This document shows positions 54,498 through 58,300 of a stretch of 64,000 bases of DNA, one piece after another (the first letter of the stretch is position 1; every line of letters begins with the position of its first letter). The stretch lies in assembly GCF_002272825.1 (NCBI RefSeq), contig NZ_MLAM01000011.1:1-64000 (forward strand), in the 5' to 3' direction. The translations under genes were made by a program, and so were the position numbers. Below the pieces are notes generated by a model. The model saw only the letters and a program-made list of their open reading frames with translations, had not been told where the DNA came from and searched no databases. This stretch comes from Helicobacter sp. 11S02596-1. GTDB lineage: Bacteria > Campylobacterota > Campylobacteria > Campylobacterales > Helicobacteraceae.

Positions 54498-56279
54498 TTA
54501 CTTGTATTCAAATATACTATATTCCCTAGAATCTCTGATTTTACTTGCCATATTCACAAAATCACGATATTTGTCAAGCTCGCTTTTTGCCAGCACCACA
54601 TACACCCCATCATATTTATGCTTTAGCTTGTTTGCGTATTCCAAAAGCTCATCTTGGGATGAAAAATCCAAAAAATTATAAAATTTATAATTATCATCAA
54701 TCCACTTTAAACGCAATAATTTATTATTAAAAATAACATATTTTTTACCTTTTTTTTCAAAGGTATTGGCAACCATTGAATTAAAAAATGGCGCATCCAC
54801 AAAAGCTGATCTTTTTTCCTCGCTTTTTAAAACAGCATTTTGGTTAAAAGGCGCTACGATCAAGCCGATAGCCACGAAACCCACAAAAATAAGGGCGATT
54901 TTTTTGTATGCAAACAAATATAATTGCAAAAATTTATTCAAAAATATTTTTTGGATAGATGGCACAAAATATACAATCACAGCCCCGAGCGCAACAATCA
55001 TCAAAGGCAAACCGGCTTGCAGATTGCGATCATCATAGCTTAGATTCATCCCCCAAAAAATAAAATACAAAAATCCAAAAATCGCTAAGAATGCCAATAT
55101 TTTATTTTTGAGTTTTAGTGCCAATAGCGATACGAGAAATAAAATCGTGTAAAACTTGTGGTGCTTTATCGCGATATAGAGCCTCTCCAATCGCCCCTTG
55201 CCATCATAGATCGCCTCCATTGTGTAACTGAGATTTGTCGCATCGGTGTTGAGATATAGCTTTTTGTAAATGGCGATTATCACCCACGGGGCGCAAAAAA
55301 ACAAAATCGCAAAGAAGCAAATGACAATAGTTTTGAAATTAACTTTTTTGGGGTGTAAAAATCTAAGATATAGCAAGCCAGCTAGATAAACGACACAGCA
55401 AAACAAGCCTGCCTGCTTTATTTCTGCACTAATCCCAGCAGCGATCGCCCCAAAAATCAGATAAAAATTTATACTCCCTAAATCTATCTCTTTCCCCGCT
55501 GAGGCTTCTTCTAAAAGAAAGCTGGCTTTTGTCAAAAATAGCATAGCGATCAAAATCACCATAGCAACTGGCAAATCCACATAACCTATGTAAAATTCCC
55601 CGCTCAAACGCACAAATACAAGCCAAATAAGAGCGCTTAAAACAAATCCGAAAATGGCATTTTTTAGCGAATCTTTAAAAAACAAAAATATACAAGCAAT
55701 AATCCCAACAAAGGCAAAATACTTATAAATAGCCACACCTATGGCTTGGAAGCTTGCTATCTTCGCACTTGCCACATAGCCTAGCGACAACAGCATAGGG
55801 TAGATTTGCGGGTATCCGCCCTCATTGAGCACAAAATCCCCTCTAGCCCACTCTATGCCCCATCGATTCCAAGAAGCCACAGCATCCCAGCTAGTAAAGA
55901 TTTGCCCTTTCAAAAGAGAAGCTAGCAGGTATAATGAGATAAGCACCCCAAGAAAAAACAAGACTTTCAAGGCACTATCATTTGATTTTAAGATATTTGG
56001 GGTTTTTATGCCACTGGTAATTTCCCTAAAAAAACACGCTAAAAATAATAAAATCTCTATGGCGAAAATTCCCACTACGACCTGCTGTGTGTAAATCCCA
56101 AAATACACTAAAATATAAACTAAGTAAAAATTAAAACATAGGCTAAAAATAAAACTGATCGCTAGGAATGATGAGATACAAAAATCGATGTGGAATTTTT
56201 TGAAAAATATCTTATAAAGCACCGCCCCAGGCAAAAAAACCGCCGCAAAAAATGACAATATCGCTAAAGCTAAATTCAT
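54498..56279 (-). CDS. Polytopic GT-C-like membrane glycosyltransferase (probable)
   Basis: The 593-residue inner-membrane protein has about twelve to fourteen hydrophobic segments and a soluble C-terminal part (from about residue 490). The first large loop contains SWDAVASWNRWGIEWARG, an acidic/aromatic loop like that of GT-C enzymes which use polyprenyl-phosphate sugars. It begins nine bases after the GT2-GtrA fusion, with AAAGGAG upstream. Together they recall the three-part Gtr sets (GtrA flippase, GtrB bactoprenol glycosyltransferase, Gtr transferase) that decorate O-antigen. The acceptor and sugar are unknown, and the family call rests on topology and context. Confidence 0.65.
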   Translation of the reverse strand: MNLALAILSFFAAVFLPGAVLYKIFFKKFHIDFCISSFLAISFIFSLCFNFYLVYILVYFGIYTQQVVVGIFAIEILLFLACFFREITSGIKTPNILKSNDSALKVLFFLGVLISLYLLASLLKGQIFTSWDAVASWNRWGIEWARGDFVLNEGGYPQIYPMLLSLGYVASAKIASFQAIGVAIYKYFAFVGIIACIFLFFKDSLKNAIFGFVLSALIWLVFVRLSGEFYIGYVDLPVAMVILIAMLFLTKASFLLEEASAGKEIDLGSINFYLIFGAIAAGISAEIKQAGLFCCVVYLAGLLYLRFLHPKKVNFKTIVICFFAILFFCAPWVIIAIYKKLYLNTDATNLSYTMEAIYDGKGRLERLYIAIKHHKFYTILFLVSLLALKLKNKILAFLAIFGFLYFIFWGMNLSYDDRNLQAGLPLMIVALGAVIVYFVPSIQKIFLNKFLQLYLFAYKKIALIFVGFVAIGLIVAPFNQNAVLKSEEKRSAFVDAPFFNSMVANTFEKKGKKYVIFNNKLLRLKWIDDNYKFYNFLDFSSQDELLEYANKLKHKYDGVYVVLAKSELDKYRDFVNMASKIRDSREYSIFEYK

Positions 56280-56288
56280 AAATCTCCT

Positions 56289-58130
56289 TTAATATTTTTT
56301 ATAAACCAAAATCTCTTGCGTGAGTCCGATAGCAAAATTCAGCTTCCTAGCCACCAGCTTGCCATACTCTTTGCAGGTAGAATCCACCTCATCAAAAAAC
56401 AATGGCCTTTCATCGTGAAACTCCCATAGATTAAGCCTTTCTAAGGATCTGCGAATCACTCTATAAAGCAATGTGGGTGTTGGGTATGTAATCAAAACTA
56501 TCCCACCACTTTTTGCCGCCTCAAAATGCCGAATACATATTGTCTTGGTATTTTTTCTATCAAAATGTTCGATGAGTCCGGCAGAAAAAACCAGGTCAAA
56601 TTTGGGCTTGAGATTTTTATTTTCTATCAAATCCACCAAATGTGCCTCTTGTTTGCTCCTTTGGATATTTGGGGCTATGTATTTGGCATTAAAGGCATTG
56701 ATGCCATTTTGGGATTTGTCATAGACTACATAGTAAGCATTTTTATAGATTTCTCTAAAAGCAGTATAAAAACAACTATCGCCCCCACCAAATTCACAAA
56801 TTTGATTAATATTTTTGTGATTTTTTATTAGATTCAAAATCATATTTGCACTAATCTTTCTTGTGATATTTGAGATTTTAAAATGATTGTTTTTTCGCCT
56901 AGAATAGTATTTTTCCCAGTTTGTAGGCTTAACATCTAGCCCCCCCCCCCCGCCACCATTTACAATCATCGACTTAGAGGTAAAGATAAAAAATCGTTGC
57001 ACAAAAAAACTAATAGCAAAGATCAATGCCTCACCGATGGGTTTTGCTACAATCTCACTAACCCCCGTGTATAGGGAGATAAGCTTGATACCCTGCATAG
57101 AAATAAACATCAAAATAATGGTTAGGGTGATGTAGGCAAAAAGCTCGAATTTCAGGTTTTTCTTGGTTTTAAAAACCATCGTTTTGCCAACTATGAAGTT
57201 AAAGCTCCCCGATACAACCCTGCCACTTATCATACAAGCAAGGAGTCCAAAGCCCAGACTAAAGGCAATCGCAAAAACTAAATAGTCGATTAATGCCGTA
57301 ACAAGCGAGTTGCTAATATGCCTAAATAGCACGAAATATATGCTAAGTGAGTCAAAAATGGGATTAAAATGCGAACTTTCATTATTATTTATGTAGATGG
57401 TTTTGATGGGGACCTGCAAGATATTTTTGCCCATATTGCACGCCTCAACTAACATCTCCATCTCAAATTCGTAGCCATTGTAAATATTTTTTAAGATTAT
57501 TTTCCCAAACTCCGGTGTAAATGCCCTAAGCCCAGTCTGCGTGTCTTGCAGGGACTTCCCAAACATAGCCTTAAATACCAGCCTGGTTAATTTATTGCCA
57601 AATTTGCTCCTAAATGGCACCTCGCCGTCAAATTCACGCACCCCTAAAACCAAATCAATATTTTCACGCTCAAAAAATGTATCTTTTAGCTTCAAAATAT
57701 CTTCGATTTTATGCTGTCCATCGGCATCTGCGGTGATTATCAATTCCAAAGCGGGATAATGATTCAAAATAAAATTAATGCCATTTTTTAAAGCCGCGCC
57801 CTTGCCTAGATTGATGGCATTTTTTAGCAAAATCGCATTTTTGTTGATTTGGGAAAAAATATTATCGAAGTTTTTAGGGGAACCATCATTTACGATGACA
57901 ACACAGAAATTTAGACTAAGCAAGGAATCAGTAAGCGCAAGGAGCATTGGATCTGGCTGATAAGCAGGGATCAAAACTACGATATTTTTATTTGATAATG
58001 TGCTAGCTGGGATCGGGTGTTTTTGTGAGGGGGACTTTAGGGAATGGGGATCTTTGAAAGCAGGGCTTTTAGAATCTAGCCCCCCCCCCGCTAAAACATC
58101 TGAAGCATCCAGATTTTTTAAATCATCCAT
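56289..58130 (-). CDS. GT2 - GtrA - methyltransferase fusion with two poly-G tracts
   Basis: The 613-residue protein has three domains. Residues about 50-270 are a GT2 glycosyltransferase of the polyprenyl-phosphate type (VVIVNDGSPKN, TADADGQH with DxD at 135-137, TGLRAFTPEFG). Residues about 275-390 are a GtrA-like membrane domain with four helices. Residues about 425-613 are a SAM-dependent methyltransferase (ICEFGGGDS; SAGLIEHF). A 10-G tract encodes the region of residues 14-17 and a 12-G tract encodes residues 394-397, exactly at the GtrA/methyltransferase junction. AAGGGC precedes the start. I infer a phase-variable surface-glycan enzyme. It is shown in the full-length ON frame. Confidence 0.85.
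   Translation of the reverse strand: MDDLKNLDASDVLAGGGLDSKSPAFKDPHSLKSPSQKHPIPASTLSNKNIVVLIPAYQPDPMLLALTDSLLSLNFCVVIVNDGSPKNFDNIFSQINKNAILLKNAINLGKGAALKNGINFILNHYPALELIITADADGQHKIEDILKLKDTFFERENIDLVLGVREFDGEVPFRSKFGNKLTRLVFKAMFGKSLQDTQTGLRAFTPEFGKIILKNIYNGYEFEMEMLVEACNMGKNILQVPIKTIYINNNESSHFNPIFDSLSIYFVLFRHISNSLVTALIDYLVFAIAFSLGFGLLACMISGRVVSGSFNFIVGKTMVFKTKKNLKFELFAYITLTIILMFISMQGIKLISLYTGVSEIVAKPIGEALIFAISFFVQRFFIFTSKSMIVNGGGGGGLDVKPTNWEKYYSRRKNNHFKISNITRKISANMILNLIKNHKNINQICEFGGGDSCFYTAFREIYKNAYYVVYDKSQNGINAFNAKYIAPNIQRSKQEAHLVDLIENKNLKPKFDLVFSAGLIEHFDRKNTKTICIRHFEAAKSGGIVLITYPTPTLLYRVIRRSLERLNLWEFHDERPLFFDEVDSTCKEYGKLVARKLNFAIGLTQEILVYKKY
56940..56951 (-). repeat. Poly-G(12) tract, domain-junction switch
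   Basis: Twelve G on the coding strand encode four Gly between the GtrA and methyltransferase domains. It is followed by CTAGATGTTAAGCC. Losing one base gives an immediate TAG; gaining one gives TAA four codons later. Confidence 0.9.
58080..58089 (-). repeat. Poly-G(10) tract, gene on/off switch
   Basis: Ten G on the coding strand end the Ala14 codon and encode Gly15-17. It is followed by CTAGATTCTAAAAGCC, nearly the same cassette as at the second tract, with stops in both other frames. Confidence 0.9.
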
Positions 58131-58300
58131 AAAAGCCCTTTTTGTAGTATTAATTTGAAATAAATTTTATCATATTTGGCGCATTTTAGGGCAAAAAAAT
58201 CCCAATGCCCTCTTGAAAAATGCCTTAAAGACACCCTAAATTGTGGCACTTTTCACGCTTCCATCTCGCATAAATGATATTTATATCCCAAATATCAAGC

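Follow-up and report, generated by a model that had tools for sequence, protein, structure and literature searches.

In Helicobacter sp. 11S02596-1, a single gene joins a GT2 glycosyltransferase, a GtrA membrane domain, and a SAM methyltransferase, and it carries two poly-G tracts, one near its 5' end and the other at the joint between GtrA and the methyltransferase. It is probably a phase-variable locus driven by slipped-strand mispairing at poly-G, where two nested switches are combined with a Gtr-type module. The gene is located in a window of 64,000 nucleotides, which is the whole stretch of DNA analyzed (positions 1 to 64,000 of contig NZ_MLAM01000011.1). Comparison with orthologous loci supports two independent poly-G switches, which would give three products. 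Tract 1, found in a disposable leader predicted to be disordered, would determine whether the gene yields enzyme at all. Tract 2, found in a similarly disordered linker, would determine whether the membrane GT2-GtrA enzyme carries the methyltransferase. The features are listed in Table 1.

Table 1. Features of the fusion gene, its two poly-G tracts, and the adjacent glycosyltransferase gene (positions in the window)
Feature	Position	Strand	Basis
Fusion gene GT2 + GtrA + SAM methyltransferase, 613 aa	56289..58130	-	Pfam, orthologues, AlphaFold/Foldseek
GT2 domain, aa 52-180, DxD-type motif DADGQH	57591..57977	-	Pfam PF00535
GtrA/DPMS transmembrane domain, aa 276-383	56982..57305	-	Pfam PF04138
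Methyltransferase core, aa 446-544, motif CEFGGGDSCF	56499..56795	-	Pfam PF08242/PF13489, fold match
Shine-Dalgarno-like AAAGGG, 5 bases 5' of the fusion-gene ATG	58136..58141	-	Direct sequence reading
Multi-helix membrane protein, 593 aa, ArnT-like GT-C glycosyltransferase, putative GtrC partner	54498..56279	-	
Tract 1, G10, codons 14-17, ON in assembly, predicted whole-gene switch	58080..58089	-	
Tract 2, G12, codons 394-397, GtrA-methyltransferase linker, ON in assembly	56940..56951	-	
CTAGATTCTAA, directly 3' of tract 1, with a stop in each off frame	58069..58079	-	
CTAGATGTTAA, directly 3' of tract 2, with a stop in each off frame	56929..56939	-	

The GT2 domain is described here as a putative polyprenyl-phosphate glycosyltransferase, and the other enzyme activities are likewise predicted. 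Its DADGQH motif is intact in all seven orthologues. The methyltransferase scores slightly below the curated Pfam cut-off (PF08242/PF13489), and its assignment is backed by the SAM motif CEFGGGDSCF, which is conserved among the orthologues, and by a methyltransferase fold. In the AlphaFold model of the fusion protein (mean pLDDT 78), the GT2 and membrane domains match DPM synthase, ArnC, and GtrB in fold; for the C-terminal part, the matches are SAM methyltransferases. The PDB matches of the GtrB/ArnC/DPMS type came from a profile search; no match was found when the PDB was searched directly by phmmer. The two longest low-confidence segments of the model (pLDDT <50) are residues 1-47 and 386-398, and each tract is located within one of these leader or linker segments, both predicted to be disordered.

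Phase-variable loci are recognized by a hypermutable repeat located within the reading frame or at its beginning, by prompt termination when the length of the repeat changes, and by off alleles that are otherwise intact. In the fusion gene, both G10 and G12 are in frame and leave the full frame open, at the very codons given by the earlier note. As that note also claimed, a change in length is followed by stops at either tract, with the two off frames terminating after 0 and 2 codons. Slipped-strand mispairing is well established for runs of more than seven G, and poly-G of this length is classed as hypermutable (PMC4235727). Poly-G rates in C. jejuni are 4.2e-4 to 4.1e-3 (PMC4235727), and in H. 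canadensis 29 of 29 coding-associated tracts vary in reads (PMC2823697). With tract 2 off, the GT2-GtrA-only product of the present gene would have about 396-400 aa. Separate translation of the methyltransferase by re-initiation 3' of tract 2 was considered and rejected: the ATG of TAGATG is out of the methyltransferase frame, and the first in-frame Met is inside the methyltransferase region. Among about 96 tracts of the genome that were examined, only this gene has two in one open frame.

The flanks of tract 1 and tract 2 are CTAGATTCTAAAAGCC and CTAGATGTTAAGCC, with CTAGAT directly 3' of both tracts. They had been taken for identical cassettes, from which it was suggested that the switch itself was copied. 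The first six bases are indeed the same; beyond them, the flanks are merely similar and are aligned with a two-base gap. An origin of both tracts from a single cassette (G run + CTAGAT..TAA) copied inside the gene would fit with the fact that CTAGAT after at least eight G exists at only these two sites of the genome; GGGGGGGGCTAGAT is also absent elsewhere in the 1.97 Mb. Identical six bases after tracts are common, however (37 tract pairs in the genome, some of them paralogues, compared with 8.6 expected from column shuffles), and in gapped alignments 83 of 4186 tract pairs (2%) align as well as tracts 1 and 2 do. Flanks are also unrelated across most species, as well as between both runs of one gene. 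The CTAGAT flank is unique to Helicobacter sp. 11S02596-1, being conserved in none of the six other orthologues, and flanks shared between the two tracts of one gene were found in no other orthologue. Copying is thus quite unlikely, and the earlier suggestion does not hold up. The resemblance of the two flanks may come from chance. Stops in both off frames within five codons are found at 26% of 58 coding tracts and at 6.7% of random coding positions (taken from the same reading frames, uncorrected for paralogy and for where in the gene a tract lies), and they are better read as a genome-wide tendency at poly-G tracts.

Among 121 Helicobacteraceae genomes searched, the fusion gene is found in six further genomes, which represent four other genera, and it was not found in any relative of the same genus. 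Helicobacter sp. 16-1353 is a relative within the same family, Helicobacteraceae. In all six other orthologues, tract 1 exists in a short, unrelated leader just upstream of GT2. In five of the six, tract 2 exists at the GtrA-methyltransferase joint, where it follows the last GtrA helix and precedes the conserved start of the methyltransferase, (T)(D/N)WExYY. Tract 1 is G8-G11 (7/7 genes) and tract 2 is G9-G12 (6/7 genes). The gene without tract 2, in genome G138, has a linker nearly identical to that of G049, with the run absent as a short indel; here tract 2 was either lost or never present. Tract length and frame differ between species, each represented by one genome. Synonymous sites are near saturation for most orthologue pairs (pS 0.65-0.85), and therefore the two hypermutable runs have persisted through synonymous saturation. 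For the closest pair, G059 and G019, dN/dS is 0.14 in GT2-GtrA and 0.16 in the methyltransferase. These low values hold even though G059 is off and the methyltransferase of G019 is out of frame. Both GT2-GtrA and the methyltransferase are thus under purifying selection.

Tract 2 might instead be a mere flexible poly-glycine linker derived from gene fusion, in which case only tract 1 would switch. Its linker is predicted to be disordered, and the protein of G138 is fused even though the tract is missing. The nearest relatives in Firmicutes MAGs match over GT2-GtrA alone, without the methyltransferase, and therefore a fusion did happen. While these points agree with a simple linker, tract 2 is out of frame in three of its six copies, so it is not the glycines that are being preserved, and its DNA is still pure G despite the saturated synonymous divergence. 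A linker without a switching role is hence unlikely, and tract 2 is regarded here as a second switch. Because the Firmicutes relatives match only GT2-GtrA, they suggest that the short form can stand alone. When a stand-alone methyltransferase was sought in 399 evenly sampled Campylobacterales genomes, only the orthologues matched.

Product states were read from the upstream start ATG of each assembly in the seven genomes, which belong to different species. Helicobacter sp. 11S02596-1 is on at both tracts and encodes the full fusion. In G019 and G018 only tract 1 is on, and the predicted products are GT2-GtrA proteins of 362 and 379 aa. The opposite holds for G049 and G059, where only tract 2 is on. 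Neither tract is on in G016, and G138 combines an off tract 1 with the absence of tract 2. The 'off' call of G059 is less certain because an in-frame ATG abuts tract 1 and the call depends on the start used. The full fusion is thus found in one genome, GT2-GtrA only in two species, and the off state in four. Between them, the different species cover each of the three predicted products and each of the four combinations of tract states. The three-state switch proposed in the earlier note is in this way strengthened, its layout being kept in four other genera. GT2-GtrA ends 5' of tract 2, and the short forms predicted for G019 and G018 may be usable, judging from the Firmicutes homologues that match GT2-GtrA alone.

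The out-of-frame states could also be homopolymer sequencing or assembly errors, with the genes all on or the off genes dead. The assemblies are drafts, and it is reported that consensus lengths of at least 8 G are error-prone in short-read assemblies (PMC4235727). Errors do not explain, however, why most of the seven genomes share two positions with pure G runs. The off genes also have no other stops, every domain frame is open, and the DxD-type and SAM motifs are intact. Given these open frames and motifs and the dN/dS of 0.14-0.16, the off genes are not decaying. It is therefore highly improbable that the observed states are errors or dead genes.

At each of the seven loci the GT-C gene adjoins the fusion gene, whereas the genes further out mostly vary from locus to locus; the pair therefore looks like a unit. 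The best fold match of the 593-aa protein is ArnT (E 6e-4, TM 0.43), a moderate match obtained with a modest-confidence model. Two of the seven family members match a TMEM260-like family of protein O-mannosyltransferases. The parts of a Gtr module are all found: GT2 (PF00535; DPMS/ArnC/GtrB folds), GtrA (PF04138), and an adjacent large membrane glycosyltransferase. Since an ArnT-like GT-C gene adjoins the GT2-GtrA gene, the pair is similar to a Gtr operon for glycan modification to which a switchable methyltransferase has been added, presumably acting on a surface target. Nine bases separate the two genes here, and in G019 they overlap; this closeness would favour a tract 2 that works mainly via polarity on the downstream GT-C gene and not by removing the methyltransferase. 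Such an effect is very unlikely as the main role, as the GT-C gene is preceded by a strong Shine-Dalgarno of its own in every orthologue and the methyltransferase itself is under purifying selection.

With tract 2 acting on the methyltransferase, a sugar would be added onto polyprenyl phosphate, flipped, and then transferred to the surface glycan by the Gtr-type module. Random switching would result in no sugar, the sugar, or presumably a methylated sugar. Slippage in this strain, the methyl acceptor, the surface target, and the effect on the glycan are all predictions. The methyltransferase may also have a substrate that has nothing to do with the GT2 sugar.

Poly-G is common in this genome, with 113 runs of at least nine G, of which about 96-100 were examined. 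Twenty-nine tracts are flanked on either side by 90 or more open codons, and most of these exist inside a single enzyme (e.g., sulfatase-type transferases, LicD, a fucosyltransferase, and UbiA). One 638-aa ORF (L132:5808-7724) encodes a tandem glycosyltransferase with two GT-B domains, and a G11 at L132:7056 (codon ~416) is found between two complete glycosyltransferase domains (392 and 442). It is a second candidate for an inter-domain switch, and because at least this one further tract is so placed, the optional-domain design may recur in the genome, though it is not the rule.

Other tracts are found in various contexts. A 769-aa fusion of GT2 and radical SAM (L130:11242-13548) has an in-frame G11 at L130:11626 (codon 128). 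An out-of-frame G11 at L114:1502 separates an Eco57I-type methylase region from a TaqI_C specificity region, possibly of a phase-variable type IIG restriction-modification enzyme. A surface-sugar cluster of 56 kb (G000:C11:193077-249105, L130-L132), which includes glycosyltransferases, a fucosyltransferase, an aminotransferase, PEP mutase, and AMP-binding enzymes, contains about 30 tracts of G9 or longer, nearly all on one strand and mostly G10-G11, and appears to be an unusually dense phase-variable cluster. Paralogous switches with identical or nearly identical flanks exist in L142 and L147 and in L093 and L143 (e.g., G14 followed by TAAATAGTAGAATAAG). AAT precedes 24 of 96 tracts, so that an ATG abuts the G run. 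Such an ATG, like the early termination in either off frame, may belong to the general design of these switches. One contig end (G000:C9:46-157) bears several long runs of G (G11, G14, and G28), probably through an artefact of assembly.

Dolichyl-phosphate mannose synthase, GtrB, ArnC, and ArnT are similar to the present system in the GT2 and membrane domain fold and the ArnT-like partner; to our knowledge, none of them has a fused methyltransferase or a phase-variation tract. The lic genes of Haemophilus are multi-state genes, which reach their states through alternative start codons. In H. canadensis, C-terminal phase variation and one gene merger (HCAN_0660/0661) via poly-G have been proposed (PMC2823697). 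As in the fusion gene, coding-region poly-G of at least 10 is involved, and a change in length alters or extends the C-terminus. The H. canadensis cases mostly concern a few 3'-end residues or hypothetical proteins. In the fusion gene, by contrast, an entire second enzyme would be gained or lost, and this gene has a second, 5' on/off tract and is conserved across genera. Domain-level poly-G switching itself is already known from NgoAV HsdS1/HsdS2 of Neisseria gonorrhoeae, where an inter-domain poly-G was experimentally shown to set short versus fused protein (PMC9577141). The fusion gene likewise has poly-G between two domains, with its switching predicted from sequence, whereas NgoAV concerns a DNA-specificity subunit, another class of enzyme, with one tract and without an upstream on/off tract. 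The gtrABC operons of Salmonella and P22, which encode phase-variable surface-glycan modification, have the same combination of polyprenyl-phosphate GT2, GtrA flippase, and specific glycosyltransferase (PMC2909390). In contrast to the fusion gene, they are three separate genes without a methyltransferase, and their switching is transcriptional, by Dam/OxyR. The Campylobacter SSR phasome (PhasomeIt, PMC6321876) is similar in its surface-glycan poly-G, translational on/off switching, and many methyltransferases; no two-tract, domain-level case was found in those passages of the survey that were searched.

A search of the literature outside subscription journals gave no clear precedent for two tracts in one gene. 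In the literature searched, no counterpart was found for two tracts in one gene of which the second would add or remove an entire enzyme, with conservation in several genera. It is possible, though doubtful, that poly-G at domain joints is a general way for Helicobacteraceae to make an added glycan enzyme optional, as an ordered multi-state switch in one gene. Phase variation is usually seen as one gene being turned on or off, but here a master switch would be combined with a nested switch for a decorating enzyme. This nested design has been kept over long divergence and is found in different states across species. It offers an example of selection keeping a hypermutable run at a domain border, and a concrete, testable example of how combinatorial glycan diversity may be obtained from one gene.
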